This document shows, in pieces, positions 9,642 through 50,427 of a stretch of DNA of 64,000 nucleotides; position 1 is the first letter of the stretch, and each line of letters begins with the position of its first letter. The position numbers and the translations under genes were made by a program. The notes beneath the pieces were generated by a model that had not been told where the DNA came from, did not search any database, and worked only from the letters and a program-made list of their open reading frames with translations. The DNA comes from Winogradskyella marina (lineage in GTDB: Bacteria; Bacteroidota; Bacteroidia; Flavobacteriales; Flavobacteriaceae). Location: positions 1 through 64,000 of the forward strand of contig NZ_JADOET010000009.1 of assembly GCF_015645385.1 (NCBI RefSeq), written 5' to 3'.

Positions 9642-9654
9642 ACCATAACACCCT

Positions 9655-14009: not shown

Positions 14010-14033
14010 TTTTTCAATTTGAAATTAAACAAG

Positions 14034-15443: not shown

Positions 15444-15709
15444 ATTTTGAAAACCAAAATATTATTTGTGGCATGTGATCGTCGTTTTATACAAGATTAA
15501 TTACTGATTTTAAGAAAAATTTAAAAACGAAAACTAAAATAATTCGGAAGTTTAGTGATGTTGATGTATATTCACCGATTAAATTTAGTTACAATAATTT
15601 GATATTTCTTTTTAAACATGTTTTTCAGTTTTTTTTTAAAGAATTAGCATATTGTTATCTGCATAGCTTAGTCTTGTTTAAACATCCAAATTTTCAAAAA
15701 TAATAGATA

Positions 15710-16654: not shown

Positions 16655-16722
16655 TACGTTTAACCGATTGTATTGCTATTGGAACCATGTAAAACAGTAG
16701 CCTCTTCTTTTTTCAAAGTAAG

Positions 16723-18525: not shown

Positions 18526-18650
18526 AAGGTATTGATAAAAGAATTAGAGTACAATCTAAAGATAAGACCTGAAGAACTAGAAGATTAGCTCATTTCAATA
18601 AATGATTGCTTTATCTGTCGATACTTTTTTAATTATTAAAGGCGTTAAAT

Positions 18651-19649: not shown

Positions 19650-20289
19650 TATATTTTACGAATATAATGTTTCGAATGAAATTACTCTGAAAATATTATG
19701 TTGTAATTGAGACAAAAAGGTAATTAATGTGATAATTGTTTATAAATTAGAATAATTAGTCATAAAGCCTAGGTACTCAATTTCTATATGGTAAAAATTA
19801 ATCTATATTATGGTTATAGCTATTGTAGAAACAGTAGCTTTATTCGTTATGATATTTGCGATGACTGGTTTACCAGGAAACTAAATATAAGTTTATTTTT
19901 ATTACTGACACTAAAACCTTTACATGTTGTAGTATTGTTTTTGGTACTTTTTTTTAGTTAAGTTCAATTTTAAATAATTCAGAATCTCTAAATGAAATAT
20001 TGTTGACGATTTATCGTTTCAAATTTTTATCTATAATAATCTGAACCACTGAACATAGATATTCACCTTTCGTAGGATAAAAACCGATCATGTTATTTTT
20101 TTTTATAAAATTGCGTTACTCTTTTGTGATTTAAAGAGTAACACACTTGTGTTTATTTTATGTATCTGATTTTTAGTAATTTGCGCTGTTTTTTTTAGTT
20201 AAAGACTGCACATTAAAGTTTTTGAATGTAACTTACACTTTTGTTAAAACATTAGAATAGAATAAATATTTAATATAAAATTATTTCAT
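19650..20289. other. 640-nt intergenic region ahead of the biosynthetic cluster
   Basis: AT-rich region between the divergently oriented YdjM-like gene and the methyltransferase that opens the NRPS-PKS cluster. It holds two adjacent inverted repeats (20115-20153, listed separately). A 24-codon hydrophobic reading frame (19810-19884) is judged too weak to call. A GTAATTTG string near 20176 resembles a -7 box with one base missing. No RNA gene is recognised. Confidence 0.4.
20115..20153 (+). promoter_or_regulatory. Adjacent inverted repeats upstream of the NRPS-PKS cluster
   Basis: A perfect 10-bp inverted repeat, GTTACTCTTT (20115-20124) and AAAGAGTAAC (20133-20142) with an 8-nt spacer, is overlapped by a second one, AACACA-CT-TGTGTT (20140-20153). 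No T-tract follows, which argues against a simple terminator. They lie about 140 nt upstream of the first cluster gene and could be operators or a leader RNA structure. Confidence 0.45.
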
Positions 20290-21147
20290 ATGAGTATTAG
20301 TAACCAATCAAATATTATTCATAAGCTTGCAGCAGTTTTAGGAAATATTCTTGTGTTTTTATTTCCGAAAAAGGCTAGCGAATTGTCAAAAAATAGGATT
20401 ACCTTAATACATAAGAATAAAAATAATTTAAATATCCCTGAAAGGTTAATGCGCTTTGCTCTTGTAAATAAACTTGATAAGATTCAAGATTACGATAAAA
20501 TTGCAGAGATGAACCGAAATTTTTGGGTTAATAAAGAAGCGACGGAGCTTTTTTCTGATACAGAAGATAAATTTGAAAATGATTTTCTACCAAACTGTAG
20601 CTTTGTATTCGATTTATTAAAAAAGGAATTGTTAAATGAGTCCGAAGAATTTGATACGCTTGTAGAAATAGGAACAGGTAATGGGGAAGTTCTTAATTAC
20701 CTTAGTGCTGAATTTCCGCAAATAAATCGTTTTGTTGGTATTGATCTTAGTTCAGATCAGATTGAAATCAATAAAGAAAGATTTAGTAATAACAAAAGAG
20801 TAGAGTTTGTCACTGCAGATGCTTCAGATTGGGTTAACCAACATGGAAGTAGTAATACTATTTTTGTTTCGTCTGATGGTGTTTTAGAGTATTTTTTAGA
20901 ACAACAACTACAAGAGTTCTTGAATCAAGTATATAGATTGGGTAAAACATTTTTTGTAGCTATAGAGCCTAATGGTGTTGATCATAATTTTGAAACAAAC
21001 CCTAACTCGCAGCTTTATGGAAAAGAGCCATCATTTTCGCATAACTATCCTAAACTTTTTAAAAATGCCGGGTTTAATTTATGGCATTTTTCACAAAAAA
21101 CCGGGTTTAAAGGTGGGACTCAAACTTTCGTTGGTGCAAAATATTAG
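20290..21147 (+). CDS. Class I SAM-dependent methyltransferase of the biosynthetic cluster
   Basis: Soluble methyltransferase of 285 residues. SAM-binding motif I is clear (VEIGTGNGEVL, about residues 125-135), with the acidic residue D152 in FVGIDLS for the ribose hydroxyls and a TADASDW motif near 175-181. The first 100 residues form a helical cap unlike housekeeping methyltransferases, so the acceptor cannot be inferred from family. It is the first gene on the plus strand leading into the NRPS-PKS cluster but is separated from the next gene by 716 nt, so membership is probable, not certain. An N- or O-methylation of the small peptide product is the natural guess. Confidence 0.75.
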   Translation: MSISNQSNIIHKLAAVLGNILVFLFPKKASELSKNRITLIHKNKNNLNIPERLMRFALVNKLDKIQDYDKIAEMNRNFWVNKEATELFSDTEDKFENDFLPNCSFVFDLLKKELLNESEEFDTLVEIGTGNGEVLNYLSAEFPQINRFVGIDLSSDQIEINKERFSNNKRVEFVTADASDWVNQHGSSNTIFVSSDGVLEYFLEQQLQEFLNQVYRLGKTFFVAIEPNGVDHNFETNPNSQLYGKEPSFSHNYPKLFKNAGFNLWHFSQKTGFKGGTQTFVGAKY

Positions 21148-21863
21148 ATATTCGATATTTTGAATTTTGTTGTTTTCAAAGTCCTATAATTTCATTTAAT
21201 ATATTGAGCTAAGGAAGTTTGATAAAAACGAACCATAGTTTATGACATTCCAGTTTTAGTTTAAAATTCATGATCTTGTGCTCAAGTGTTTCTATTAGGA
21301 TCGCTTCTTTTTGAGAACTCGTATTTATTTTTAAATATTGGAATACCTGTTTTACGTTTATTCTGCATATTTATAACCAATTAGCTACCATTAAAATTCA
21401 AAAAATTCTTAACGAGCTAATAAATAATCTATTTCATTATTTTTTTACAAGAGTAAATAATCATGCTGTTTTATAGCCACTTGAAAACGTCAGAAAACAT
21501 GACTATTTTTTTTTGAAATCATTATGAATTATTTGTTTTTATTGAAAAAACGAGAATTCGATAATGTAAGAAATTTATAACATAATTAATTGTGTTTTTA
21601 GTTGTAAGATGTTGTTTGTTAACTATTTAGTTGTTAAAAATCAGTTTAATTAAATATAATTGACTATGTTTGAATTTATAACTTTCTTAAGTTTTACTGA
21701 TTTTATTTAAGATAGTAGTCCCCTTCACAGAAACAAATCAATAACGATTAGTAGCGATTCATTTTAAAACTCTTATCCTATTTATTAATGATGTTAATAG
21801 GGTAATGATTGTGTTAAAAGGTTAAATAGTTTTTGTCTTTATAATTAAAAAGTTAGAAAAAAA
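21148..21863. other. 716-nt AT-rich gap within the cluster
   Basis: No supported coding frame, RNA or terminator with a stable stem is seen between the methyltransferase and the first oxygenase gene. The size of the gap suggests the oxygenase has its own promoter. Confidence 0.4.
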
Positions 21864-22727
21864 ATGAAAAGTCGTGCTAATATATCCAAAATTGATAGAT
21901 GTAATGGGCTGTCCCAAAAAGCATTTTATAATAAATATGTAAAAACGTCATTACCTGTTGTAATTACTGATAAAGCCGAATGGACATCATCAGAAAAGTT
22001 TACAATTGATTATTTGAAATCTAATTACAACCACTTATCTAAAACCATTGATGGTAAAACCTATTCATTATCAGAAATAATTGATTTATGTCAAACATCA
22101 ACACCAGAAAATAAAGCTCCTTATCCAAATACTTATGACGCTCTTCGTGATTTTCCTGAAAACTTTGGGGATTTACCAGAAATATTATACGGAAAATCAA
22201 ATAGACTAAACAGTCGCCTGTTAAGTAATTTTTTCGCCAAACATACTAATCAACATGAATTGTTTTTTGGCGGATATGGATGTTCCTTTCCAACCGTCCA
22301 TTTCGATTGGCTCGGAGTACATTCTCAAATCACTCAAATAATAGGAAAGAAAGATGTTATCTTATACTCACCCGACCAAACCCCTTATTTTTATCCAGAT
22401 AAAAGACATCACCATCACAGCCCTGTCAATATTTTGAATCCAGATTATGACAAATTCCCATTATTCAAGAATGCAAAAGCTGTAAAAACGACATTAAATC
22501 CTGGTGAAACCTTATTTATACCTGCAGGTTGGTGGCATACCACTTATATGCACGATTTTAATCTTACCGTTGCAATCTCTCATGTAAACTCATATAATTG
22601 GAATTTCTTTATGGATGAACTATATTTAAACACAAAAATTCATTATCCTAAACTAGCTTGGATGGTTAAGATTTATAAAGTGGTTGTGGGAAAAATTTTT
22701 AATGTCAAGGAAGCTTTGGTGAATTGA
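21864..22727 (+). CDS. JmjC/cupin_8-type Fe(II)/2-oxoglutarate oxygenase, copy 1
   Basis: Predicted soluble dioxygenase of 287 residues with the FIH-1-like double-stranded beta-helix. The iron triad is visible: H146 and D148 in VHFDWLG, and H225 in AGWWHTTY. The 2-oxoglutarate-binding region is likely around GKKDVILYSPDQTPYFYP and ETLFIPAGW. An extra His-rich loop (RHHHHSP, residues 181-187) is absent from the second copy. It shares layout and the PDQTPY-x-YP string with the gene at 30968, so the two are paralogues. In biosynthetic clusters such enzymes usually hydroxylate an amino acid, free or carrier-bound. The substrate here is inferred to be a building block of the NRPS-PKS product. Confidence 0.8.
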   Translation: MKSRANISKIDRCNGLSQKAFYNKYVKTSLPVVITDKAEWTSSEKFTIDYLKSNYNHLSKTIDGKTYSLSEIIDLCQTSTPENKAPYPNTYDALRDFPENFGDLPEILYGKSNRLNSRLLSNFFAKHTNQHELFFGGYGCSFPTVHFDWLGVHSQITQIIGKKDVILYSPDQTPYFYPDKRHHHHSPVNILNPDYDKFPLFKNAKAVKTTLNPGETLFIPAGWWHTTYMHDFNLTVAISHVNSYNWNFFMDELYLNTKIHYPKLAWMVKIYKVVVGKIFNVKEALVN

Positions 22728-22895
22728 GTGAATCATAATTTTACCACATTTATAATAGAAAAAATATGTTTTACAAACATAGTCTTTTGATTAAAGCCCA
22801 ATCGATTCTTTATATTATTTGGTTTGAGTTTGGCTCTTATAAGACCTTGAAAATATTATTTTTACGAAAAATATCAATAAAAAAATATAAATTAA

Positions 22896-23714
22896 ATGAA
22901 TTTGAAAGCTTTTGTAAAAAAATATGAGATTTGGATCTTTCTAGTACTTGGCCCCTTATCCAATATCATTTTTGTTCAGGCTAGGATTCACGATCTGATG
23001 TCGCGTTCTATGTATAATACAGGTCGATTTTGTCTACTATTGTTTATATTAATTTGTTTAATAAAATATACTAGAGGAAATGAAGGCATAAGAGATTTAT
23101 TTAAGCCTATGCTAAAATGGAAAGTGCATCCAAAGTGGTTTTTTTTGTGTTTAATTTTTCCTACAACCATAGCGACTATAACTTTATTATTAAAGGCGCT
23201 CTATTATGACGTCGAATATTCTACGTTTTTTACTCTTATTACAACAAGCCTTAGAGGGTATATTGCCAATTTTGTTTGGGCTTTCCTTGGAGAAGTGGTT
23301 TGGGTTAGTTATTGTATTCGGCAATTGTCAAAAATCGTGAAGCCACTTTATGCAAGTCAAATTATTGCTGTGTTTTGGACCTTATGGTTTATTCCCATAT
23401 TAATTCTTGGAGAAGGTACATTTCCTGAAATCCCAATTTTACCTGCGTTCCTATTTTTTATGGGACTTTCTGGTATGTGTGCTTTTGTTTACAAACATAC
23501 TAAAAGTGGTCTTTGTGTTCTTTTATTACAGACTATGGTGAACTATACTGCCGTGTCACTACCAATAATGCCGACAACTGGAGGGGCTCCTACATACATT
23601 ACCTTTGCGGTCATATATTTTCTAGTTATGCTAGGATTATGGGGTTTAGAGTTTCTAATTACAACAAGCAAAAAGAAAGAACTCATACAGAGCGGTTGGT
23701 TTCCAAAGAACTAA
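22896..23714 (+). CDS. CPBP-like membrane protein with degenerate active site
   Basis: Integral membrane protein of 272 residues with about seven to eight helices, resembling the CPBP/Abi (type II CAAX protease-like) family. The usual catalytic motifs are altered: EExxxR reads E133-V134-xxx-S138, the WHLP-type histidine is replaced (W164-F165-I166-P167), and HxxxN reads Q212-xxx-N216. Peptidase activity is therefore unlikely. Family members near peptide antibiotic clusters often act in self-immunity or maturation. Its location between the oxygenase and megasynthase genes makes an immunity or membrane-scaffold role the best guess. The family call itself rests on weak motif remnants. Confidence 0.55.
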   Translation: MNLKAFVKKYEIWIFLVLGPLSNIIFVQARIHDLMSRSMYNTGRFCLLLFILICLIKYTRGNEGIRDLFKPMLKWKVHPKWFFLCLIFPTTIATITLLLKALYYDVEYSTFFTLITTSLRGYIANFVWAFLGEVVWVSYCIRQLSKIVKPLYASQIIAVFWTLWFIPILILGEGTFPEIPILPAFLFFMGLSGMCAFVYKHTKSGLCVLLLQTMVNYTAVSLPIMPTTGGAPTYITFAVIYFLVMLGLWGLEFLITTSKKKELIQSGWFPKN

Positions 23715-24295
23715 TGATTATGATAAAATTTTCAAATTAGACCAAAATATTTTAGTCATTAATTTCAAACATCACGGACACTATAATTCTGTAGTGGTTT
23801 ATAATTATTGATTTTGACTAATTTCTAATATAATAAGGAATGGAGGAATTTTATAAATTAAAAATTATAATAATTTAGTATTTAAGTCTTATCCAATAGC
23901 GATATGTTCGTTTATCATGTTAGATATTGATTTTGTTAGTTTTACGAACGGTAATTATTATACCTATTTGATTTATGCAAGCGACTATATCTTGACTTAT
24001 GTTTGGTGTTTTAATAACAAAAACTCAAGAGGTTTTTGATATTGATGGATTTTATTGATTTTGAACGACAAAAGAAACGATTTATCTAATTTATGTTAAT
24101 TAGGTTTAAAAATTTATTTAAATTTCGTCAAAATTCCCCTCAAAATTTAACTAACTGCGGTCTGGGCTTTTTCCCTGATACTTAGACTAATGAAATAGTA
24201 GTTACTATTAAAATATTATATTACTTAGTAAACTGTAAATTATACAAATGTATATCTAAGTATATTGATATTTACGATTATTAAATTGGAATAAA
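23715..24295. other. 581-nt gap upstream of the megasynthase gene
   Basis: AT-rich and without a credible coding frame. It probably contains the promoter and leader for the NRPS-PKS operon (24296-36681), but I cannot point to a TAnnTTTG box with confidence. No terminator for the CPBP-like gene is evident. Confidence 0.4.
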
Positions 24296-27200
24296 ATGAG
24301 TGAACATAGTCAAGTTTATCTACTTTTTGAAAAGGCGGCAAAATCTTATCCAGATGATCTTTGTATAATTACAGAAACAGATAAGCTCACCTATAGTCAA
24401 ACAGAGGAAGCAGTCTCAAGAATTTACAACCTAATTTTAAATCATGCCAAAGACGAGAGTATTATTGGTGTACCAACAACACGGTGTACAGAACAAATAA
24501 TTTTCGTATTAGCAATTTTAAAAGCTTCTAAAGCATATCTTCCAATTGATTTTGGATATCCTAAAAAAAGACTTGAAGGCATTATTTCTAATTCAAAACT
24601 TTCATTTTGTTTAACAACAAAGAAGGATGAAAGTAATGTTATAGCAATGGGACTTAAACCATTAACTAATGGACTTAAACAATCCATTGATAATGGGGTA
24701 ACTGAGTCAAGCTCTATAAATACAGCGACTTATATATTGTATACTTCCGGTTCTACAGGCGAACCTAAAGGTGTTTGTATGAGTGAAAAAGCCATGGTTA
24801 ATCTTATTAATTGGCAAAACGAAAATTCAACATGTAATATAGGTACACGTACTTTACAATTTGCGCCATTAAGTTTTGATGTTTCATTTCAAGAAATCAT
24901 GGCTACATTAAGTAATGGAGGTACCCTTGTTTTAATTGATGATGTCTTAAGGTTAGATATGGTTGCGCTCTTAAATTATATAGAGAAGCAGCAAGTTAAT
25001 AGGTTGTTTTTACCATTTGTAGCATTGCAAGCTTTAGCAGAAGCAGCTTTAAGCATGGAGGTTTATCCTACATCCCTTAAAGAAATAATGACTGCGGGCG
25101 AACAACTTAAAATTACATCTCAAGTTCGTAACTTTTTTACTAAACTTAGAGGTTGTGTGCTCTTCAATCAATACGGGCCTACAGAATGCCACGTGGTTAC
25201 AGAATTAAAACTAGAAGGAGAACCTTCTAATTGGCCAGCATTACCAACCATTGGTAAACCTATTAGCAATACCTCAATATTTATTCTTAATGATAAACAG
25301 GAAGTTGTGCCAGATGGAACTCTCGGTGAACTTTGTATTGCTGGTGATTGCTTGGCTGAAGGATATTTGAACAATAAAATATTAACAGAAGAAAAATTTG
25401 TTAATTGGAAATCTCCAGAAGGCACATATAAACGGATTTATAAAACTGGTGATATTGCCAAATATTTACCCAATGGGACTATAGAGTTTCTTGGTCGTCA
25501 AGATGATCAAGTTAAAATTAGTGGGCATAGAATTGAATTGGCCGAAATCGAATTAGCAATTAATTCAATAATTGGTATTGTTCAAACTGTTGTAATAGCT
25601 TCAAATCATTTGGGAGGGCAAACGCAACTAGTAGCATATATACAACCCAATCAAAACAGTTTTGATATGGCCGATGTTCGCCAGCAAGTTTCGGATTTGT
25701 TGCCAGAATACATGATGCCTTCATATTTTGTTGCTGTTGAAGATTTTCCGCGAACTTCAAGTGGTAAAATTGACAAGAAAAAATTACCAGCACCGCAATA
25801 TAGTAGACCAGATTCAGCACCACCATTTAAAGCAGCAATTACAAATATTCAAAAAAACATAGCTAAAGTTTGGACCGAGTTATTGTTAATGCCTAAAATT
25901 GGGATTGATGACAACTTTTTTGAATTAGGAGGAACATCATTATTAGCGCAAAAGGTAACAGCTTTGCTATTAAAAAATTATGGCTATAAATTACCTGTAA
26001 CTAAATTATATCAGTTCCCTAGGATTGCTGAAATCTCTAATTATTTAGAGCCTAAGAAAAAAGTTAAGACTAAAAAATCTACTAAAAGAGATCATAAATC
26101 TAATGGCTCTAGAGATGTTGCAGTAATTGGTATGGCAGGTCGATTTCCAGGGGCAGATACTATTCAAGAATTATGGGAAGTTCTCAAAGAAGGAAGGGAA
26201 ACAACTTCATTTTTTTCTTCAGAAGAATTAGATGCTACAATTTCCGAAGCTTTACGTAACGACCCTCTTTATGTTAAAGCGCGAGGTATTGTCCGTTCTG
26301 CTCAAGAATTTGATCCTGCATTCTTTGGCTTAAACCCAAAGGTTGCTTCAGTAATGGATCCACAACAACGTCTATTTTTAGAAATAGCCTGGGAAGTCCT
26401 AGAACAATCTGGTTATCTCCCAAAGCATTATGAAGGAACTGTTGGTGTTTATGCAGGTACGGGAATGAATACATATTATAAAAACAATGTATTACCCAAT
26501 AAAGAGCTTCTAAATCAAGTAGGAGATTTTCAAGCGAGTACATTAAATGAAAAAGATTATATTTCTACAAGAACAGCCTATCACTTAAACTTAAAAGGTC
26601 CAGCGGTTAGTGTTCATTCTGCTTGTTCTACATCACTTCTAGCTATTGCACAAGCTACTGAAGCTATACGAAGTGGTCAGTGTGATGTGGCTATAGCTGG
26701 TGGTTCTAGTGTAACAACTCCAATTTACAGTGGGCACCTCTATCAAGAGGGCTCTATGTTAAGTCCAGATGGTCGTTGTCGTCCATTTGATAAAGACGGA
26801 AAAGGAACTATTTTTAGTGATGGTTGTGGTGTAATTCTTCTAAAAAGCTTGGAGTCTGCAATAAATGACGGGGATCAAATACACGGAGTTATTAAGGGCG
26901 TAGGTATAAATAACGATGGTGGTGGAAAGGGTAGTTTTACAGCACCAAGTGTAGAAGGGCAATCTGGCGCTATATCTAGAGCTCTCGATGATGCCAATGT
27001 ATTACCTTCTGAAATTAGTTATATAGAAGCTCATGGTACGGCAACTCCAATAGGTGACCCAATAGAGATGGAGGGGCTTCATGATGCATTTGGGGAGCAG
27101 TCGAAAAAGAATTATTGTGCAGTAGGTTCTATTAAAAGTAATATGGGACATCTTACTGGTGCAGCAGGAGTCGTCGGAGTCATAAAAACGATATTGGCAT

Positions 27201-30200
27201 TAAAAAATCAAAAAATTCCAGCATCTTTAGGTTATGTTGAAGCGAATCCAGCTATTGATTTTGAAAATAGCCCATTCTATGTAAATAATACATTCTCTGA
27301 TTGGAATTGTGAAGGGAAACGACGTGCGGGCATCAGTTCTTTTGGAGTAGGTGGTACCAATGTACATGTTGTAGTTGAAGAATATGAAACAAAACCTATA
27401 GCGACTAGTGACGGTAAGCCGTTACAAATTTTAACCTGGTCTGCAAAATCTGAAAATAGTCTTGACGGATATAAAAAAGCGTTGGGTAAGTATATAAAGT
27501 CTGCTACAGAAGTAAAATTAACAGATATAGCCTACTCACTTAGTACCACTCGAGACACTTTTGGCAAACGTAGTTTTGTTTTAGCAAATAATTCAGAAAA
27601 TGCTATTGAGCAACTATTAGCAAATGAATCAGCTTCTATTAAATCTTCAGGCTTAAGAGCTGTACCAAGCAATTTTGCATTTCTTTTTCCAGGACAAGGT
27701 GCACAATATTTACAAATGGGAAAGGCACTCTATGAACATGAACCAGTGTTCAGTGAAGCTGTAGATCAATGCGCTCAAATATTACAAGACGCCTATAATT
27801 ATGATATTAGACATATTATTTATCCTAAAACTAATTCACAAGAGGCTGAAAATCGATTAAAGGATACGCAATATACCCAACCAGCATTATTTGTTGTAGA
27901 ATATGCCTTGTCTCAACTTTGGATGAGTTGGGGAATGCAACCAACTTTACTTTGTGGTCATAGTATAGGTGAATTTGTTGCGGCACATTTAGCGGGTATA
28001 TTCAATTTAAAGGATGCTTTACTTTTAGTTGCTATTCGAGGTAAGTTAGTTAGTAATCTTCCAGGAGGTAGTATGTTATCTGTTCGATCAACCTACAAGA
28101 GTCTATCTGAAATACTGCCAGAAGGTTTATGTATTGCTGCCGTTAACTCAGATAAATTAGCTGTGGTTTCTGGTGAAGACGAATCTATTAATGCATTTGC
28201 AAAAATTTTAGATGAAAAGGAAATACCAAATAGATTACTATTAACCAGCCATGCGTTTCATTCCACAATGATGGATCCTGTTTTGAAGGAATTTGAGACT
28301 GAAATCAATAAAGTAACCTTAAATATTCCTAGAATACCTATTATTTCTACAGTAACAGGAACATGGATGAGTGATTCTGATGCTACAGACCCAAAATACT
28401 GGACAGATCATTTGCGTGCAACTGTTCGCTTTTCAGATGCCATGGAAACAGCACTTGGGCTGGAAGATATTGTTTTATTGGAAGTTGGTCCTGGTCGTGC
28501 ATTAACCACTTTGTCACAACAAAAAAAGAGGCCAAAATCGGCAAGCTCTATTTCAAGTTTAGTTGCTCCTGGTGAACATGAAAATTCCTATCATACTGTA
28601 TTATCTGCATTAGGTCAACTATGGCTAAAAGGTATAGAGCCTAATTGGCAAGCCTTTTATAAAGGTCAATCTAGGCAAAAGGTATGGCTTCCAGCTTATG
28701 TATTTGACCGCAAGCACTGTTGGGTAGATCCACCACTAACAGAAGTAGTTACTAATACTACTATTAGATTAACCGAATCAAATAATAATGAACCTATTCA
28801 ATCTCAAACTCAAATGAATACTGCTATACAACCTAACAGAAAAACGACGCTTTTAGAAAAAATTTCAGATATCATTATGGATACGTCTGGAATAGAACTG
28901 GAATCGTCTGAACACGATTATAGTTTCCTTGAGCTTGGACTTGATTCTCTCGTTCTAACGCAAATGTCTATCACATGTAAAAATGAGTTTAAAACACCGA
29001 TAACCTTTCGTCAGTTAAATGACGAATTAGGGACGCCAAGTTTATTAGCAGAACATTTAGACCAGATTTTACCGAAAGATGTTTATGCACCTGTGCCTGT
29101 TACTCATTCTGTAAGCGTACCTGTTCAGAATACTGTAGCCACTCAAGTTCCGGCACCAGTTCAATCCTCTAATACTAGTGCTACATATAGTAATAATGGC
29201 TCTGCAATAGATCTCATAGCGCAACAGTTGCAACTATTAGGAAAGCAATTGGAATTGTTAAAAGGAAATAATGTAGCTTCAACTTCGGCATCAGAAACAG
29301 TTCCGCAATCCACAGTAGTTCCACAATCCTCGAAAGCAGAAGTTAAGCCAACAATTAATTCTACAGTTGAAACGCGCTCTGAAGAAGAAATTAAGGAACA
29401 TAAAAAACCCTTTGGAGCTTCCCCAAAGATTGATCGACAAGCAACGGAATTAGATTTAAATCAGCAGTCATTTTTAGATGAACTTATAAAAAGATATAAC
29501 AAAAAAACGGGTAGTAGTAAAGCTTATTCTCAAAAGCATCGAGCTTATATGGCTGATCCAAGAGTCGTATCTGGTTTTAAGCCATTGACTAAAGATTTGA
29601 TTTACCCTTTAGTGGTTGATAAGTCCTCTGGGAATCGCCTTTGGGATATAGACGGTAACGAATATATTGATGCTTTAAATGGGTTTGGCTCGTGTTTATT
29701 TGGGCATCAACCAGATTTTATAACAAAAGTTTTACATGAACAAATAGAGAGTGGATATGAGGTAGGTCCTCAGCATCCATTAGCAGGTGAAGTATGCGAG
29801 TTGCTTTGTGAGTTTACAGGACATGACCGTGCTGCTTTATGTAATACAGGTTCAGAAGCTGTTTTAGGATCTATGCGTATTGCAAGAACTGTAACTGGAC
29901 GTTCACTTGTGGTTGCATTTTCTGGAGCTTATCATGGTATAAATGATGAAGCTCTTGTAAGAGGTTCAAAAAGTCTTAAAACATTTCCAGCCGCAGCTGG
30001 TATCCTTTCTCCATCGGTACAAAATGTATTAATTTTAGAGTATGGTACAGATGAAAGTTTAGAAATTATCCGTAAGCGTTCGCATGAACTTGCAGCTGTT
30101 ATCGTAGAACCCGTACAAAGTCGTAGACCTGAATTTCAGCCTGTTGAATTTCTTAAGGAAGTTAGAGAGATAACGAAAGCTTCAGAAACTGTACTTATTT

Positions 30201-30955
30201 TTGATGAAGTTATCACAGGTTTCCGTATGCATCCAGGTGGTGCACAAGCTTTGTTTGGTATCAAGGCCGATATTGCGACATATGGAAAGGTAATAGGTGG
30301 AGGTATTTCCATTGGAGCCATTATGGGAACTAAAAATTGTATGGATGCACTAGATGGTGGGTTTTGGCAATATGGAGACGCTTCATACCCAGAAGCAGGT
30401 GTTACTTACTTTGCGGGTACGTTTGTTCGCCATCCACTTGCGCTTGCTGCTGCTAAAGCATCATTAATTCACATGAAAGAGTTAGGTGAATCGCTTCAAA
30501 AAAATCTTAATAGTATCACTGAAAACTTTGCAAAGGATCTTAATGGAGAGTTTGCAAAGCGTGGGTTACCTATGGAAATAAAATATTTTGGGTCATTATG
30601 GCGACTAAAATTTTTAGAAGAAATACCGTATTCAGAATTGCTTTTTGTTTTGGTTAGAGAAAAAGGTATCCATATATGGGATGGTTTCCCTTGTTTTATG
30701 ACTACAGCTTTTAAAAGTGAAGATATTAATAAGTTAAAACAAGCTTTTATAACTAGTGTTGATGAACTCATCGCTGCGGATATTTTAAAACCAGAAAAAG
30801 ATAATATAAGTCCAATTACTAATGGATCTAGTGCTGAAGCATTAAATAAGCCACCTGTAGAAGGTGCACGTTTAGGAATGGACGAACTAGGAAATCCAGC
30901 TTGGTTTATAGCGGATACCAAAGAAGAAGGGAAATTCGTAAAAATAGATTTATAA
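24296..30955 (+). CDS. Hybrid NRPS-PKS megasynthase: A-PCP-KS-AT-ACP-aminotransferase
   Basis: Multidomain assembly-line protein of 2219 residues. Order: adenylation domain (about 5-500; YTSGSTGEPKG near 150, SSGKIDKKKL near 487), peptidyl carrier (S548 in LGGTSL), ketosynthase (about 606-1035; C777, H913 and H952 all intact), acyltransferase (about 1125-1425; S1223 in GHSIGE, HAFH at 1319-1322 as in malonyl-specific domains), acyl carrier (S1551 in LGLDSLV), a Pro/Ser/Gln-rich linker (1585-1720), and a glutamate-semialdehyde-type PLP aminotransferase (about 1730-2170; K1998 in YGKVIGGG). There is no condensation, ketoreductase or dehydratase domain. Inferred chemistry: load an amino acid, add one malonate, keep the beta-ketone, transaminate it to a beta-amine. 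The tail (GARLGMDELGNPAW) ends the protein where related synthases often continue into a condensation domain. By eye, the A-domain pocket reads D-V-Q-V-M-A-Q-V-V, close to proline codes. Confidence 0.93.
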   Translation: MSEHSQVYLLFEKAAKSYPDDLCIITETDKLTYSQTEEAVSRIYNLILNHAKDESIIGVPTTRCTEQIIFVLAILKASKAYLPIDFGYPKKRLEGIISNSKLSFCLTTKKDESNVIAMGLKPLTNGLKQSIDNGVTESSSINTATYILYTSGSTGEPKGVCMSEKAMVNLINWQNENSTCNIGTRTLQFAPLSFDVSFQEIMATLSNGGTLVLIDDVLRLDMVALLNYIEKQQVNRLFLPFVALQALAEAALSMEVYPTSLKEIMTAGEQLKITSQVRNFFTKLRGCVLFNQYGPTECHVVTELKLEGEPSNWPALPTIGKPISNTSIFILNDKQEVVPDGTLGELCIAGDCLAEGYLNNKILTEEKFVNWKSPEGTYKRIYKTGDIAKYLPNGTIEFLGRQDDQVKISGHRIELAEIELAINSIIGIVQTVVIASNHLGGQTQLVAYIQPNQNSFDMADVRQQVSDLLPEYMMPSYFVAVEDFPRTSSGKIDKKKLPAPQYSRPDSAPPFKAAITNIQKNIAKVWTELLLMPKIGIDDNFFELGGTSLLAQKVTALLLKNYGYKLPVTKLYQFPRIAEISNYLEPKKKVKTKKSTKRDHKSNGSRDVAVIGMAGRFPGADTIQELWEVLKEGRETTSFFSSEELDATISEALRNDPLYVKARGIVRSAQEFDPAFFGLNPKVASVMDPQQRLFLEIAWEVLEQSGYLPKHYEGTVGVYAGTGMNTYYKNNVLPNKELLNQVGDFQASTLNEKDYISTRTAYHLNLKGPAVSVHSACSTSLLAIAQATEAIRSGQCDVAIAGGSSVTTPIYSGHLYQEGSMLSPDGRCRPFDKDGKGTIFSDGCGVILLKSLESAINDGDQIHGVIKGVGINNDGGGKGSFTAPSVEGQSGAISRALDDANVLPSEISYIEAHGTATPIGDPIEMEGLHDAFGEQSKKNYCAVGSIKSNMGHLTGAAGVVGVIKTILALKNQKIPASLGYVEANPAIDFENSPFYVNNTFSDWNCEGKRRAGISSFGVGGTNVHVVVEEYETKPIATSDGKPLQILTWSAKSENSLDGYKKALGKYIKSATEVKLTDIAYSLSTTRDTFGKRSFVLANNSENAIEQLLANESASIKSSGLRAVPSNFAFLFPGQGAQYLQMGKALYEHEPVFSEAVDQCAQILQDAYNYDIRHIIYPKTNSQEAENRLKDTQYTQPALFVVEYALSQLWMSWGMQPTLLCGHSIGEFVAAHLAGIFNLKDALLLVAIRGKLVSNLPGGSMLSVRSTYKSLSEILPEGLCIAAVNSDKLAVVSGEDESINAFAKILDEKEIPNRLLLTSHAFHSTMMDPVLKEFETEINKVTLNIPRIPIISTVTGTWMSDSDATDPKYWTDHLRATVRFSDAMETALGLEDIVLLEVGPGRALTTLSQQKKRPKSASSISSLVAPGEHENSYHTVLSALGQLWLKGIEPNWQAFYKGQSRQKVWLPAYVFDRKHCWVDPPLTEVVTNTTIRLTESNNNEPIQSQTQMNTAIQPNRKTTLLEKISDIIMDTSGIELESSEHDYSFLELGLDSLVLTQMSITCKNEFKTPITFRQLNDELGTPSLLAEHLDQILPKDVYAPVPVTHSVSVPVQNTVATQVPAPVQSSNTSATYSNNGSAIDLIAQQLQLLGKQLELLKGNNVASTSASETVPQSTVVPQSSKAEVKPTINSTVETRSEEEIKEHKKPFGASPKIDRQATELDLNQQSFLDELIKRYNKKTGSSKAYSQKHRAYMADPRVVSGFKPLTKDLIYPLVVDKSSGNRLWDIDGNEYIDALNGFGSCLFGHQPDFITKVLHEQIESGYEVGPQHPLAGEVCELLCEFTGHDRAALCNTGSEAVLGSMRIARTVTGRSLVVAFSGAYHGINDEALVRGSKSLKTFPAAAGILSPSVQNVLILEYGTDESLEIIRKRSHELAAVIVEPVQSRRPEFQPVEFLKEVREITKASETVLIFDEVITGFRMHPGGAQALFGIKADIATYGKVIGGGISIGAIMGTKNCMDALDGGFWQYGDASYPEAGVTYFAGTFVRHPLALAAAKASLIHMKELGESLQKNLNSITENFAKDLNGEFAKRGLPMEIKYFGSLWRLKFLEEIPYSELLFVLVREKGIHIWDGFPCFMTTAFKSEDINKLKQAFITSVDELIAADILKPEKDNISPITNGSSAEALNKPPVEGARLGMDELGNPAWFIADTKEEGKFVKIDL

Positions 30956-30967
30956 AAAATATGTCTT

Positions 30968-31861
30968 ATGGCGACAAAAATTATTGAATTAGTTAACAAT
31001 GGAACGTTCTCTGTAGAGAAAAAATATGGTATGACCTATGATGAGTTTGCCAAGGATCATTTGTTTGCAGGTGTTCCGGTAGTTATAGGCGATGCCTGTG
31101 ATGGCTGGGCAGCAAAAGATAAGTTTACTCCAGATTTTTTCAAATCAGAATATGGGAGTCGAAAGGTCAAAGTCCAAGACCAAGAGTATCGACTAGACGA
31201 ATTTATAGAACTTATGGAGCGGTCTACTATTGATAATCCAGCGCCTTATCCTTGCAAACTTCAAATAGATAGAGAGTACCCTGAATTACTGCCGGATATA
31301 TCACCAAGATTTAAATTTGCAATGCCAGATTGGAGTCATAATACGCTTATAAAACCATTTACAGCAGGAGCAGACACCTATGAAATTTTCCTTGGTAGTC
31401 CTGGAGGTCAATTCCCTTATGTGCATTATGATTATATGGGGTTACATGCTTTTATTACTCAATTATATGGGAAAAAGGAATTTACAGTAATTCCACCAGA
31501 TCAAACACCATATGTTTATCCTAAGGAAAATAATACTTGGGTTTCGGAGGTTCCCGATATTAAGAACGTCGATTTAGAAAAATATCCACTTTGTGCTAAT
31601 ATCACTCCAGTGACCTTTACTGTAGGCCCCGGAGAAACATTATTTATTCCTAATGGTTGGTGGCATACTGCACATTCGTTAACAATAACCCTTTCTGTTG
31701 CACAGGATTCATTGAATGCATCAAATTGGAAACGATTTAAAAATGAAGCCAATACAGCAGTTGCTAAAAGGAGTTCGATAATTGCTAAAATGTCAAATAT
31801 TTATCTTTCTGTAGTAGGGAGTATTTTAGGAGCGAATAAATCGAAATATAAGAACTCTTAA
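30968..31861 (+). CDS. JmjC/cupin_8-type Fe(II)/2-oxoglutarate oxygenase, copy 2
   Basis: Second FIH-1-like dioxygenase of the cluster, 297 residues. The iron triad is H153 and D155 in VHYDYMG, and H233 in NGWWHTAH. The cofactor region GKKEFTVIPPDQTPYVYP matches copy 1. It starts only 12 nt after the megasynthase stop and 67 nt before the second NRPS gene, so it is surely co-transcribed with both. That ties its function to the assembled product or a carrier-bound intermediate. Two non-identical oxygenases imply two different hydroxylations, or hydroxylation and a further oxidation. Protein hydroxylation, the role of human FIH-1, is a less likely alternative given the operon. Confidence 0.83.
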   Translation: MATKIIELVNNGTFSVEKKYGMTYDEFAKDHLFAGVPVVIGDACDGWAAKDKFTPDFFKSEYGSRKVKVQDQEYRLDEFIELMERSTIDNPAPYPCKLQIDREYPELLPDISPRFKFAMPDWSHNTLIKPFTAGADTYEIFLGSPGGQFPYVHYDYMGLHAFITQLYGKKEFTVIPPDQTPYVYPKENNTWVSEVPDIKNVDLEKYPLCANITPVTFTVGPGETLFIPNGWWHTAHSLTITLSVAQDSLNASNWKRFKNEANTAVAKRSSIIAKMSNIYLSVVGSILGANKSKYKNS

Positions 31862-31928
31862 AAAACATACATAGTAAGATACCTGTAAAATTTAATAGAT
31901 AGCGAGCGCCTTAATTTTCAAATTTACA

Positions 31929-34900
31929 TTGATGAATCAATCTACATTATTGAATACAACCAATCATTTTGATCCTTTCGCAGGGCCAGAGTTGGAAAAA
32001 GTAAATTATACAACTCCATCTCAAGCAGAAATATGGATTGCTTGTAAGTTGGGAGGAAGTGGTGCTAATAGTGCATATAACGAATCTGTTTCTCTAATTT
32101 TAGAAGGAGAATTAAATAAAGAAGCTATAGAATATGCAATAAAGAAATTGGTTCAGCGTCATGAATCACTTCGTGCTGTTTTTAGTACTGATGGGCGTTT
32201 TATGAGTATTTTTAAAGATGTTCCAATACTTATTAATTATGAGGATATTTCAGCTCTTACGGATTCTAAAAAAGATGAAAAAATAGCAGATTACTTACTA
32301 AAAGACGCTAATGTGTCTTTTGATTTGGTAAAAGGCCCATTACTAAAAGTTGGTTTAATCAAAATTAGTGAATTGAAGCACCAGTTGATTATCACCGCTC
32401 ACCATATTATATGTGATGGTTGGTCAATGGGTATCATGTTGCAGGATCTAGGAGGTCTCTATTCTGCGCGTGTACAAAATAAATTGGCATCTTTACCATC
32501 ACCAGAAAGCTTTGTGACATTCGCAGATGATCAACAGAAATTTTTAAAAAGTGAAGCGTATAAAACAACCGAAAATTTTTGGTTAGAACATTATGAGTCG
32601 TCTATTCCTCAATTAGATTTACCTACTGATTTTCCAAGGCCTCAATTAAGAACATTTAAAAGTGAACGTCTTGATTTTCCTATTGATAATGACTTATTAG
32701 ATGCTTTAAAAAAAACAGGTTTAAAAGCGGGATCCAGCTTTGTTAGTACGCTAATGGTAGCTTTTGAAGTTCTGTTATTTAAGTTAACTGGTAGTAGTGA
32801 TTTAGTTGTTGGACTACCTTCTGCAGGGCAATCGGCAAGTGGCAAGTCTCATTTGGTAGGGCATTGTGTTAATTTGTTGCCTTTACGTAGTAAAATTAAT
32901 ACAAATAGTAGTTTCGTTGAGTATTTAAAAGTCCGGAAATCAGAGTTTTTCGACGCCTATGATCATCAACAATTAAGTTTTGGCCAATTACTTCAAAAGC
33001 TTCCTATTACAAGAGATCCTTCAAGAATACCTCTTGTTCCTGTCGTTTTTAATATTGACTTAGGGATGTCGGATGACGTATTTTTTACGGACTTAACTTA
33101 TAAACTCAAAAGTAATCCTAGAACATACGAAACTTTTGAAATTTTTTTAAATGCTACTGGATCGGAAGATGAATTCATTTTGGAGTGGTCCTATAACTCA
33201 AATCTCTTTAAGCCTGAAACTATTCAGCAAATGATGATTTCTTTTGAAGAGATAATTCAAACGATAGTAGCTAATCCAGAAGTTAAAATAGGTGACATTG
33301 TAAAAATAGACGATTCAGATTATAACAATTTAAATAATACGAGTGCTACTTACCCTCAGTTGCCTTTATATGAGCTTATTTCACAACAAGCAAAAACGTC
33401 TCCTTTAAATACGGCACTAAAATTTGGTGATTCGGAAATGTCTTATGAAAATTTAGACAAGCAGATTCATCAATTAGCATATCGTTTAAAAGAAGAAGGT
33501 ATAAATCCAGGTGATGTAGTGGCTGTGGCTTTACCACGATCAATAGAACTTGTGGTGAGCTTACTTGCTGTGATGCAGTGTGGTGCTGCTTATTTACCTT
33601 TGGATCCGAGTTATCCTCAGCAGCGATTAGATTTTATGATCGAAGATTCAAAAGCTGAAGCATTAATTTCATCTAAAGAATTCACGATATCATCAGAGTC
33701 AATTCCGAAGATGCTAATATTGGAAGATCTATTTTTAGACTTATCAAAATATCCTTTATCTCCATTGAACATTTCAATAGATTTAGAAGATATGGTCTAT
33801 TTGCTTTATACTTCTGGCTCAACAGGTAAACCAAAAGGTGTTCAAGTAACACACAAAAATCTGGTTAATTTTTTATACGGTATGTTAAAAGAGCCAGGTA
33901 TAAAAGAAACAGATAGATTTTTGTCTATAACAACGATTTCTTTTGATATTGCTGGACTCGAGTTATTCTTGCCCTTATTAAAAGGAGCAACCTTGATTAT
34001 TGCAAGTGATGAGGTCGCAAAAGATCCGCGTTTAATGTTAGATGTTCTTAAAGAAGAACGTATAACAATGTTGCAAGCAACACCAACAACTTGGCAGATG
34101 TTGCTTGATGCAGGTTGGCAAAATCGCTTACCACTAAAAGCACTTTGTGGAGGTGAGGCACTACCACTGAGTTTAGCAACTAAATTATTAAAAAGAGTTG
34201 ATGAGGTTTGGAATATGTATGGCCCTACCGAAACGACTATATGGTCTGCTGTTAAACAAATTATGCCAGAGGATGAGTTAATAACTATTGGACATCCTAT
34301 CGCAAATACGCAATTATACATACTTGATGAAAACGGTGCATTAGTAGCTCCCGGTAAGATTGGAGAATTGTGCATAGCCGGAGATGGTGTTGCAAAGGGA
34401 TATTGGAAGCGTCCGGACTTAACAGCGGAAAAATTTCTAAAAAGTACCTTTAATAAAGACGAAAACGCATGTGTTTATAGAACAGGAGATTTGGGTAAAC
34501 TGTTGCCTACTGGAGAAGTTCAATGTTTAGGTCGAATTGATCAACAAGTTAAAATTCGTGGGCACCGTATAGAGCTAGGAGAAATAGAAGAGGCTATAAA
34601 TACAATAGATGGGATAGAATCTTCTGTAGTATTAATAGATAAAGATCGTTTAAAAGCATTTGTCATTACTAATAATTTAAAAAATGACGCTCAGGCCCTA
34701 GAACAAAATTGGAAGGCGTATCTAAAAGAACGACTTCCATTATATATGGTACCTCAGGAAATGATTACTTTAGATAAATTCCCTACGACTTTAAATGGGA
34801 AAATAGATCGTAAAAGTTTAACCGCTTCAGCATCAATAAATTCGCAGAAATCAACTTTAACTTTTGCTCAAAGTGATTCAGAGCAACTTGTTGCCGCAAT

Positions 34901-35912
34901 TTGGCAAGAATCTCTTGGAATTGATAAAATTGATGTTGATAGTAACTTTTTTGAGTTGGGAGGTCATTCTCTTATCGCAGTCAAAGTTATGACTCGGTTA
35001 GAAAAAGAGACAGGAAATAGATTACCACTTGCGGCATTACTGGAGCAACCAACAATTAAGAAATTGGCAGCCTATTTGGACAAGAAATACATTACATGGG
35101 ATTCGTTAGTGCCTTTAAAAACTAATGGTCATAAAATGCCAATATTTATTGTTCACGGAGCAAATCATAATGTATTGGTCTTTAAAAATTTGTCAGAATT
35201 ATTAGGTGATAAACATCCTGTTTATGCCTTGCAAGCTAAAGGTCTTAGTGGTGATATTGAACCTCATGATTCTGTAGAAGCGATGGCATCTCATTACATA
35301 TCAGAAATTAAGTCTGTAAATCCTGATGGACCTTATGCGTTAGGTGGATTTTCGTTTGGAGGTATTGTGGCTTTTGAAATGGCAAAACAATTAAGGGCAG
35401 AAGGAAAAGAAGTGAAAAATGTTGCACTTTTTGATAGTTATGCTTATCCTCATTATTCATATTTAAATCCTACCGCAAAACGTAGAATTGCTCGCCTTTA
35501 TGATATGGGGCAACTTTTTTTCATGCTCTTTAACATGTTTAGTAGTGTTAAGAATTTTAAACGTAGGGTTGATTTACTTAAAATTAGTTTTTCAGGTTTA
35601 TATTTAAGATTAAAATACGGAAGAGAAAAACAATACCAATTACAATTTAATCGCACCTCTAAGATTGATGAGATGCACGCCGTGGCCTTTAAAAGTTATA
35701 ACTTAATTCCACAGGATATACAAGTAGATTTGTTTAGATCAACTGAAGATATTTATTTTGCTCATGATTATAAGAATTTGGGTTGGGAAAAAATTGCGAA
35801 GGGTGGAATTCGTAAGCATATGATTCCTGGAAATCATTCAGAAATGTTTCTCTCGCCTGCAGTTGAAGAGGTGAGTAAACTATTAGAAAGCGTGTTAGAT
35901 GACGGCGAGTGA
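31929..35912 (+). CDS. Terminating NRPS module: C-A-PCP-TE
   Basis: Non-ribosomal peptide synthetase of 1327 residues. The condensation domain (about 30-450) has an intact HHIICDG motif (H158, H159, D163). The adenylation domain (about 475-970) has YTSGSTGKPKG near 630 and LNGKIDRKSL near 957. The carrier serine is S1014 in LGGHSL. The C-terminal thioesterase (about 1065-1320) has its nucleophile S1142 in GFSFGG and a late histidine in GNHSEMF. The pocket residues read D-I-L-T-L-G-M-I-W by eye alignment, close to known glycine codes (DILQLGLIW). It would accept the beta-amino acyl chain from the upstream protein, add one amino acid and release the product by hydrolysis or cyclisation. Its stop overlaps the start of the phosphopantetheinyl transferase gene by 14 nt. 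Confidence 0.94.
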   Translation: MMNQSTLLNTTNHFDPFAGPELEKVNYTTPSQAEIWIACKLGGSGANSAYNESVSLILEGELNKEAIEYAIKKLVQRHESLRAVFSTDGRFMSIFKDVPILINYEDISALTDSKKDEKIADYLLKDANVSFDLVKGPLLKVGLIKISELKHQLIITAHHIICDGWSMGIMLQDLGGLYSARVQNKLASLPSPESFVTFADDQQKFLKSEAYKTTENFWLEHYESSIPQLDLPTDFPRPQLRTFKSERLDFPIDNDLLDALKKTGLKAGSSFVSTLMVAFEVLLFKLTGSSDLVVGLPSAGQSASGKSHLVGHCVNLLPLRSKINTNSSFVEYLKVRKSEFFDAYDHQQLSFGQLLQKLPITRDPSRIPLVPVVFNIDLGMSDDVFFTDLTYKLKSNPRTYETFEIFLNATGSEDEFILEWSYNSNLFKPETIQQMMISFEEIIQTIVANPEVKIGDIVKIDDSDYNNLNNTSATYPQLPLYELISQQAKTSPLNTALKFGDSEMSYENLDKQIHQLAYRLKEEGINPGDVVAVALPRSIELVVSLLAVMQCGAAYLPLDPSYPQQRLDFMIEDSKAEALISSKEFTISSESIPKMLILEDLFLDLSKYPLSPLNISIDLEDMVYLLYTSGSTGKPKGVQVTHKNLVNFLYGMLKEPGIKETDRFLSITTISFDIAGLELFLPLLKGATLIIASDEVAKDPRLMLDVLKEERITMLQATPTTWQMLLDAGWQNRLPLKALCGGEALPLSLATKLLKRVDEVWNMYGPTETTIWSAVKQIMPEDELITIGHPIANTQLYILDENGALVAPGKIGELCIAGDGVAKGYWKRPDLTAEKFLKSTFNKDENACVYRTGDLGKLLPTGEVQCLGRIDQQVKIRGHRIELGEIEEAINTIDGIESSVVLIDKDRLKAFVITNNLKNDAQALEQNWKAYLKERLPLYMVPQEMITLDKFPTTLNGKIDRKSLTASASINSQKSTLTFAQSDSEQLVAAIWQESLGIDKIDVDSNFFELGGHSLIAVKVMTRLEKETGNRLPLAALLEQPTIKKLAAYLDKKYITWDSLVPLKTNGHKMPIFIVHGANHNVLVFKNLSELLGDKHPVYALQAKGLSGDIEPHDSVEAMASHYISEIKSVNPDGPYALGGFSFGGIVAFEMAKQLRAEGKEVKNVALFDSYAYPHYSYLNPTAKRRIARLYDMGQLFFMLFNMFSSVKNFKRRVDLLKISFSGLYLRLKYGREKQYQLQFNRTSKIDEMHAVAFKSYNLIPQDIQVDLFRSTEDIYFAHDYKNLGWEKIAKGGIRKHMIPGNHSEMFLSPAVEEVSKLLESVLDDGE

Positions 35913-36681
35913 TAATTCTAAATGTATTATTTTTAGTAAAACTTCTGAAACCTTTGATAGTCAAATAGACGAAGAAATTAGTGTCGATTCAGATATTAAA
36001 TTATTTAAAATTGAATTATCTAAGTATTATGGAGTTGTCGAAGTATTATTAAAAACATTAACCCCACTTGAAGTAGAAAGAGCTCACAGATATCATCAGT
36101 TAAAAGATTTTAAAAGATTTGTAATCTGTAGAAGCATTCTTAAAATAATTATTGCGCAGCTAAAAGGCTTAAAGGTTTCGCAAGTGTATTTTGAAAAAAA
36201 TGATAACCATAAGCCGTATTTTCCTTCAGATAAATCACTGTTTTTTAACGTATCGCACGCTGGTGAATATGCCCTAATTGCAATTGGTCCTTGTGAATTA
36301 GGTGTGGATATTGAGTATATAAATCCTCAATTTGAATACGAAGAAATCCTACCAACAGTTTTTAGTACAGAAGAAATAAATTTTATAAATGATTCTGAAG
36401 ATGAAAGGCATGATTTTTACAAATTATGGACAAGAAAAGAAGCCATTGTAAAAGCCACTGGGCAAGGTATTGATGATGATTTTTTTAAAATACCGGTTAA
36501 GGATGGTTCCCATACAGTGTCTGCATCATTAGTAAATAACTTTAATAAAATAAATGTTTATAGCTTCAATATAACAACGAGTTACATTGGGTCTATTGCG
36601 TTTAAAGGTGTTGATGTTGATTTAAAACAAATAGTTTTTCAGCCTATATCAAGTGCCGAAAAACTAGAGTCTTTATTTTAA
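35899..36681 (+). CDS. 4'-phosphopantetheinyl transferase (Sfp type)
   Basis: Activates carrier domains by moving phosphopantetheine from coenzyme A to the conserved serine. At 260 residues it has the two-lobed Sfp size, not the small AcpS size. Signature motifs are present: GVDIEY (135-140; D137 and E139 bind Mg2+) and WTRKEAIVKATGQG (177-190; E181, K185). An FNVSHAGEYA string near 117-126 is the CoA-binding region. The gene overlaps the NRPS gene by 14 nt, indicating translational coupling and dedicated service to the three carrier domains of this cluster (S548, S1551 and S1014). Confidence 0.95.
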   Translation: MTASDNSKCIIFSKTSETFDSQIDEEISVDSDIKLFKIELSKYYGVVEVLLKTLTPLEVERAHRYHQLKDFKRFVICRSILKIIIAQLKGLKVSQVYFEKNDNHKPYFPSDKSLFFNVSHAGEYALIAIGPCELGVDIEYINPQFEYEEILPTVFSTEEINFINDSEDERHDFYKLWTRKEAIVKATGQGIDDDFFKIPVKDGSHTVSASLVNNFNKINVYSFNITTSYIGSIAFKGVDVDLKQIVFQPISSAEKLESLF

Positions 36682-36695
36682 TTGACTAGTGTATT

Positions 36696-36739
36696 GTAAC
36701 ATTAGTTACGCTATCTGTTATTAATCCTTTGTATTTTTA
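36696..36739 (+). promoter_or_regulatory. GTAAC-N4-GTTAC activator site and promoter (cytochrome c lipoprotein)
   Basis: Inverted repeat GTAACATTAGTTAC (36696-36709). A box TATTTTTA (36732-36739, 7 of 8 to TAnnTTTG counting fixed and free positions) begins 36 nt after the site start. The same arrangement recurs at six other promoters in the window. Confidence 0.7.
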
Positions 36740-36755
36740 TTTAAATTTTATTGAA

Positions 36756-50424: not shown

Positions 50425-50427
50425 AAT

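Follow-up and report, generated by a model that had tools for sequence, protein, structure and literature searches.

We analyzed a hybrid nonribosomal peptide synthetase-polyketide synthase (NRPS-PKS) gene cluster of Winogradskyella marina that lies within positions 1 to 64,000 of contig NZ_JADOET010000009.1 (assembly GCF_015645385.1), a stretch referred to here as the window. Seven open reading frames (ORFs), all on the forward strand and open over their full length, were found by ORF listing and Pfam where an original prediction made from the sequence alone had placed them. They encode a class I SAM-dependent methyltransferase (MT; 20290..21147; Pfam Methyltransf_25, E 1.6e-12), a JmjC/Cupin_8 oxygenase of the 2-oxoglutarate type (cup1; 21864..22727; Cupin_8, E 1.6e-28, HxD...H present), a membrane protein of the CPBP/Rce1 fold with an altered active site (22896..23714; Pfam Rce1-like, 21.7 bits with a cut-off of 22.4), a first megasynthase of 2219 amino acids (24296..30955), a second JmjC/Cupin_8 oxygenase between the two megasynthase genes (cup2; 30968..31861; E 1.9e-27), a second megasynthase of 1327 amino acids (31929..35912) and an Sfp/HetI-type phosphopantetheinyl transferase (PPTase; 35899..36681; ACPS, E 5e-16). 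The PPTase scored 100 bits with NCBIfam HetI, under its cut-off of 370, and is one of two ACPS-family matches in the genome. The last four genes form a tight, operon-like block, with gaps of 12 and 67 bp followed by a 14-bp overlap; the gaps after the MT, cup1 and CPBP genes are 716, 168 and 581 bp, respectively.

Pfam gives megasynthase 1 the order adenylation (A1, 24326..25768), peptidyl carrier protein (PCP1, 25859..26047, Ser548), ketosynthase with linker (KS, 26111..27622, Cys777, His913 and His952), acyltransferase (AT, 27680..28636, Ser1223 and His1322, motif HAFH), acyl carrier protein (ACP, 28835..29017, Ser1551) and pyridoxal phosphate (PLP)-dependent aminotransferase (AMT, 29462..30772, Lys1998 and Asp1970). 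Megasynthase 2 consists of condensation (C, 32007..33332, HHIICDG), adenylation (A2, 33384..34802), carrier protein (PCP2, 34887..35078, Ser1014) and type I thioesterase (TE, 35139..35873, GFSFGG, Asp1169 and His1303) domains, and this arrangement agrees with the predicted one. With A, PCP, KS, AT, ACP, C and TE domains and a PPTase all present, the cluster qualifies as a hybrid NRPS-PKS. No ketoreductase (KR), dehydratase or enoylreductase domain was listed by Pfam for megasynthase 1, and no transporter family was found by Pfam among the seven proteins, in line with the predicted lack of an exporter in the cluster. Since the C domain of megasynthase 2 is the only one found in a search of the 78-contig genome, the line stands apart from any longer NRPS, and the proposal of a complete short assembly line holds to that extent.

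To place the cluster among relatives, we used a pattern scan of a species-genome collection, which identified ten public genomes with a full-length relative of megasynthase 1 (63-74% best-segment identity), besides one partial match in a Planctomycetota genome (L019, 41% over part). When the same gene order was looked for in these other genomes, as originally suggested for Flavobacteriaceae, the MT, both megasynthases and the PPTase were grouped together in all ten, and the recurrence of the cluster is therefore beyond chance. Six more Flavobacteriaceae clusters came from genomes of the family (397 searched) and of the order (395 searched), and phylum-wide an AMT match with E < 1e-180 was obtained in 13 of 395 genomes, those of the window and G505 among them; from the phylum search 14 stretches were fetched and 13 used in the comparison. 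The resulting set comprises 30 first megasynthases, that of the window and 29 relatives from 28 other genomes, and leaves out L019 and the longer or split lines L036, L037 and L081. Matches in G461, G486, G523, G558, G617, G794, G871 and G986 and second, weaker matches in G981 and G1078 are uncounted; coverage of L068-L080 ends about 1-3 kb below the line, so that tailoring genes may be missed, and L035 is a 13.7-kb contig. Because 29 relatives from 28 other genomes could be compared, the cluster is, by sequence similarity, a member of a family that recurs across Bacteroidota. Megasynthase 2 is a separate C-A-PCP-TE gene in 27 of the 30 clusters, is fused in L079 and split in L080, and was not seen in the stretch of L070. 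Both Maribacter clusters (L011, 16707-23987, and L017, 16710-23990) carry an additional C-A-PCP module within megasynthase 2, and L033 (G700) has tandem second megasynthases at 11698-15744 and 15815-19810, with codes DILQFCMIYK and DICVFCLIFK.

Conservation of the catalytic residues across the family was checked for the two megasynthases. The PCP serine, the KS cysteine and both histidines, the AT serine and histidine, the ACP serine and the AMT lysine and aspartate are invariant in 30 of 30 first megasynthases, and the HAFH motif, which we take to be of the malonyl type, is kept in 29. In the second megasynthases the PCP serine and the TE serine, aspartate and histidine are invariant (29/29), and the C motif HHxxxDG is retained in 27 of 29. 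The motif is altered in L011 and L017, where the second C domain reads NHAVCDG and the first is normal; save for these second C domains, the megasynthase residues described as intact are kept both in the window and across its relatives.

With code positions fixed by motif anchors in the window proteins, A1 reads DVQFMAQVVK, a proline-type code that is identical in 17 of 30 clusters and occurs as DVQFIAQVCK in one more. The accessible part of PMC12283262 names Val236 with Gln239 as the usual signature of proline domains (59 of 71) and quotes DILQLGMIWK for four glycine domains; the A2 code of the window has the same ten letters as those four. Glycine-like A2 codes are present in 16 of the 29 clusters with A2 read, in L021 only loosely so, and the others are DI.QIT.IWK in six, DIFEFTLIWK in three (in the terminal module in L011 and L017) and singles. 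The A1 codes of the other relatives are DAMIIAMVCK (3), DAMWLGI-type (3) and six singles, including DLTKMGHIGK, which is presumably close to Asn/Asp codes; alignments differ on position 299 of L018, which reads L or I. From these readings the building blocks are probably proline for A1 and glycine for A2. The cluster L074 (12531-16544) combines a proline-type starter with DLTKMGHIGK as its second code and has a cup2-like gene following its PPTase.

The AMT domain found its best match in a PDB search in the solved mycosubtilin synthase AMT (6kfm, E 6e-113, 381 bits), with 437 residues aligned, the TYGK lysine included; the next family, glutamate-1-semialdehyde aminomutase (GSAM), scored 169 bits. 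KS, AT, ACP and AMT follow one another in one chain, the mycosubtilin AMT is nearest and the PLP lysine is kept, all of which identifies a MycA-type module. According to the accessible text of PMC3547906, the AMT domain of MycA places an amine at the beta position in cis, yielding a beta-amino thioester, and by analogy we infer that the window domain aminates its beta-keto chain. Because the starter would be an amino acid, combining it with beta-amination would give a beta,gamma-diamino acyl chain. The predicted use of two amino acids and one malonate, with a beta,gamma-diamino unit, thus finds support in the domain order, the residues and the mycosubtilin-like AMT.

Among the tailoring genes, the MT has a homologue in 14 of the 17 Flavobacteriaceae-type clusters, and the stretches fetched for the 13 other clusters lack one. 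The protein has its own helical N-terminal part, and its model (pLDDT 86) lists, weakly, folds including the alpha-N-terminal methyltransferases NTMT1/NTM1, with many other class I enzymes scoring alike. An insert of roughly 400-450 residues that reads by eye as methyltransferase-like is present in A2 of L069 and L078, two of these other clusters, a hint of possible N-methylation of the second residue, and the MT of the window fits a tailoring N-methyltransferase acting on that residue or nearby.

The two oxygenases combine HFD/HYD with WWH, the HxD...H iron site, a combination kept in six of six aligned proteins; in PDB searches the nearest solved relatives of cup1 are JMJD5 and FIH, and cup2 is JMJD5-like. 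We found cup1 in 5 of 17 Flavobacteriaceae-type clusters and cup2 between the megasynthase genes in the window, L015, L020 and L021. JmjC genes accompany 9 of 18 proline-type clusters versus 0 of 12 others (Fisher p 0.004, without kinship correction), and cup2-like genes are also found in L074 and L080, which belong to other families and thereby extend the link beyond Flavobacteriaceae; we regard the tie to proline starters as a lead. Within the Flavobacteriaceae-type proline clusters, cup2 is present in all four with a Gly-301 A2 and in none of the nine with a Thr-301 A2.

The CPBP gene is present in 10 of 17 Flavobacteriaceae-type clusters. Its modeled product (pLDDT 85) is closest in fold to Rce1 (4cad, TM 0.70), followed as the next distinct fold by SpdC (6u0o), a non-proteolytic member. 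Canonical CPBP proteases carry EExxxR and two histidine motifs, including HxxxN; all ten cluster homologues show GEVVWVSY without EExxxR and QxxxN for HxxxN, and E133, Q212 and N216 are invariant in the 10-protein alignment. The protein had been called degenerate, and this is correct for its altered active site, but the altered stretch is invariant in 10 of 10, and we therefore rejected the idea of a decaying remnant. We guess at a conserved role other than proteolysis, for example in self-protection or membrane anchoring.

We consider it rather probable, from the domain content and codes, that the cluster encodes a complete, very short NRPS-PKS line producing 3-amino-3-(pyrrolidin-2-yl)propanoyl-glycine in methylated and hydroxylated form. 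The PPTase would arm the carrier domains and A1 would load L-proline onto PCP1, after which the KS would condense the proline with AT-supplied malonate on the ACP to a beta-keto-gamma-amino acyl chain in which the pyrrolidine ring supplies the gamma nitrogen. Replacement of the beta-keto oxygen by an amine at the AMT would generate 3-amino-3-(pyrrolidin-2-yl)propanoyl-ACP, a vicinal diamine, which the C domain would couple to glycine on PCP2 and the TE would release as a pseudo-dipeptide, in acid or lactam form. Methylation by the MT would most likely take place on nitrogen, and hydroxylation by the two JmjC oxygenases most likely in the proline-derived part of the molecule. Before tailoring, the open acid would be C9H17N3O3, with a calculated m/z of 216.134. 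If this is right, two proteins with 3546 residues suffice for a vicinal-diamine scaffold, in a system small enough to express and assay whole.

Several observations weigh against this assignment. Substrate codes predict imperfectly; DVQFMAQVVK is presumably not the code most often seen for proline, and a literature search for its first nine letters gave no match. A dedicated exporter is absent from the cluster, and the fold match of the MT is weak (query-normalized TM at most 0.58 among 50 listed). In half of the proline-type clusters (9 of 18) the fetched stretch is without a JmjC gene, G213 has a cup1-like gene on another contig (L006) with a starter that is not proline-type, and L079 is classed as non-proline although its code DAEFMAQVCK has six letters of the proline code. 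A firm statistical tie between JmjC genes and proline had to be rejected: on supported branches of the KS-to-AMT tree there are four independent pairs (median p 0.5), of which on average 2.1 point the same way, 0 the opposite way and 1.9 are undecided. This leaves the odds of the proposed product unchanged, as the JmjC link bears solely on the hydroxyl positions. Likewise, the rule that cup2 implies a glycine A2 fits all 13 Flavobacteriaceae-type proline clusters and fails family-wide, because the stretches of L072 and L075 lack cup2 although their codes read proline and glycine.

The product may also differ in how it is released or aminated. Closure of a ring by one of the amines, at the TE or spontaneously, would give a small fused lactam: attack by the beta-amine would form a seven-membered diazepanedione, attack by the pyrrolidine nitrogen an eight-membered ring. 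We think this unlikely but worth keeping in view, given that the TE triad is kept in 29 of 29 second megasynthases, that free nucleophilic amines would be in reach and that the product would be small enough. Type I TEs often just hydrolyze, the sequence here does not separate the two outcomes, and the extra C-A-PCP of L011 and L017 would extend the chain and require a larger ring. Omission of the amination step is improbable: once the beta-keto thioester forms, the free pyrrolidine nitrogen would be well placed for the chain to cyclize to a pyrrolizidine-dione, or the chain could be released unaminated, as a keto acid or beta-keto amide, with the AMT being slow or acting on another substrate. 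This is opposed by the invariance of the AMT lysine and aspartate in all 30 proteins and by the position of the domain in cis, as in mycosubtilin synthase. That this strain carries a silent or broken line seems to us a very remote prospect, since none of the seven ORFs is interrupted and the megasynthases retain their catalytic residues; in its favor, cup2 and the AMT domain are unmatched in both congeners examined (G157 and G338), so the cluster is dispensable in the genus.

There is also a slim chance that the product is not a free small molecule and instead serves as a building block on a surface polysaccharide. Six of 16 clusters with examined surroundings (L011, L012, L013, L014, L017 and G299) lie in or beside exopolysaccharide gene sets, four of the six with Wza/Wzc-like genes; one glycosyltransferase-like gene neighbors L016, and a FemAB-like gene adjoins the MT in L011, L017 and L020. 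By contrast, none of these genes was found over 56-64 kb at the window, L015 and L018, or over 20 kb only at L021, L033 and L034, and L009 and L010 have only FemAB-like matches and L020 only its FemAB-like gene. Moreover, the gene families were named by eye, and capsule loci may be mere landing sites for islands. The FemAB-like gene of L020 (3908-5023, G360; named by eye) sits between the MT and megasynthase 1. As a separate observation, the exopolysaccharide-associated clusters (L011, L012, L013, L014, L017 and L022/L057) all have Thr-301 type A2 codes, and the other Thr-301 clusters (L009, L010 and L016) and the examined glycine-type ones have few or no exopolysaccharide genes.

Returning to the diaminoacyl-glycine line, its comparison with relatives revealed that KS and AMT are the two most window-like domains in 23 of 29 relatives. 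In L018 the AMT is 82% and the KS 75% identical to that of the window, versus 30% for the A1 core; the A1 of L018 most resembles that of L033. Identity between L018 and the window is 18-39% to about residue 390, 37-53% to about 600 and 70% and more thereafter, and the exchange therefore took at least the substrate-binding part of the A domain. In the KS-to-AMT tree, L018 and L034 fall within a seven-row group that includes the window (100/99). The A1 tree instead joins L018 with L033 and L035 (100/100), inside a six-row group (100/100) that is separate from 13 Flavobacteriaceae-type proline rows (100/100), although its branches are long and its deep joins unsure. What is new here, as read from these sequences, is that the KS-AT-ACP-AMT chassis stays constant while the starter A domain is swapped, and elsewhere in Bacteroidota the relatives appear to begin this scaffold with different amino acids. 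A more local mosaic is seen between the window (24296-26100) and L015 (10001-11800), where A1 is 73-90% identical over the first ~330-360 residues and then 47-70% up to the KS, which suggests recombination inside A1.

We tentatively propose, with a little less than even confidence, that combinatorial beta,gamma-diaminoacyl-glycines arise across Bacteroidota from one conserved chassis, KS-AT-ACP-AMT plus C-A(Gly)-PCP-TE, through repeated starter swaps, with JmjC enzymes in half of the proline branch producing aminated counterparts of detoxinine. If true, this would be a natural-product class for which we found no described member and a natural record of working A-domain swaps before a ketosynthase. 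The relatives would then make it testable where to cut an NRPS starter from a PKS module and how selective the KS is for its substrate.

The cluster is also a discrete insertion. Its flanks carry ordinary genes, a fatty-acid hydroxylase, a transporter and YdjM on one side and cytochrome c-like, thioredoxin and peroxiredoxin genes on the other. In the congener G157 the YdjM and cytochrome-c-like genes adjoin, and alignment places 42 bp between the flanks in lieu of window positions 19650..36688; the 17.0 kb from the MT through the PPTase are thus present or absent as one unit, a movable gene set. Winogradskyella thalassocola (L015; DSM 15363), with codes and tailoring genes like those of the window, has the cluster between the same two flanking genes as the window, and two Gelidibacter genomes have it in a related neighborhood, but past the thioredoxin gene. 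The relatives place the window in Flavobacteriaceae, and 90% identity of a flanking gene together with the site common to W. thalassocola would suit Winogradskyella or a near genus. A comparison of 19601-20289 with 36601-36760 gave no repeats at the ends of the insertion, neither direct runs of 11 bases nor inverted ones of 10. Presence and absence of the insertion among congeners offers a natural comparison for metabolomics.

Rfam gave no match across 15-42 kb of the window, and a scan for promoters and terminators was uninformative (91 and 12 sites, compared with 82.1 and 9.5 in shuffles). An RND efflux set (MarR, HlyD, AcrB and OEP) lies at 9159-15443, about 5 kb from the cluster. We rejected this pump (9.2-15.4 kb) as the cluster exporter because matches above 35% identity occur in no relative's examined flank, L015 included. 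Farther along the window are a gene for a PAP2-superfamily protein weakly matching a vanadium chloroperoxidase helical-bundle model (48905-50224) and a TetR and OEP pair (50377-52300).

Genome surveys record uncharacterized NRPS-PKS hybrids of Flavobacteriaceae and Bacteroidota; in one of them, 12 of 306 families were grouped with MIBiG entries (PMC9248904, accessible part). The accessible parts of this survey and of PMC10734526 describe neither the gene set, the codes, the starter exchange nor the product, and they may count such clusters unnamed. We recognized the gene set in no description among the literature searched, MIBiG and most subscription papers being outside its reach.

The order KS-AT-ACP-AMT is common to the window and to MycA of the mycosubtilin/iturin type, as generally described, where it is primed with a fatty acid and belongs to a seven-residue lipopeptide line, in contrast to the amino acid starter and the single following residue here. 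An iturinic lipopeptide synthetase has a fatty-acyl ligase starter and seven amino-acid modules; the window line, with an amino-acid A domain as its starter and one C domain found in the genome, is not of that kind. Zwittermicin and guadinomine are hybrid NRPS-PKS products with neighboring amines and in this, by their general description, resemble the predicted product, but their extra amine comes from aminomalonyl extender units and not from a beta-aminotransferase domain. The closest published analogues appear to be the detoxin/rimosamide-like (DRL) lines, with their detoxinine core, including the miramides and pseudotetraivprolides. According to the accessible text of PMC12828459 and PMC9503745, the DRL core is made from proline and malonate, is ketoreduced, and is hydroxylated on the proline ring by a dioxygenase. 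The A1 code and the HAFH motif hint at a proline and malonate unit in the window, and hydroxylation of the proline ring is predicted here as well. In DRL lines, as far as the accessible accounts go, a KR generates an alcohol, the oxygenase is of the taurine-dioxygenase type and an amino acid precedes proline, whereas in the window no KR is listed by Pfam in megasynthase 1 and the AMT would provide an amine, both oxygenases are JmjC/Cupin_8 proteins, and proline would come first with glycine after it. Judged by its domains, the window line would thus be an aminated counterpart of the DRL lines and not one of their members, a hybrid NRPS-PKS built around a MycA-type module.

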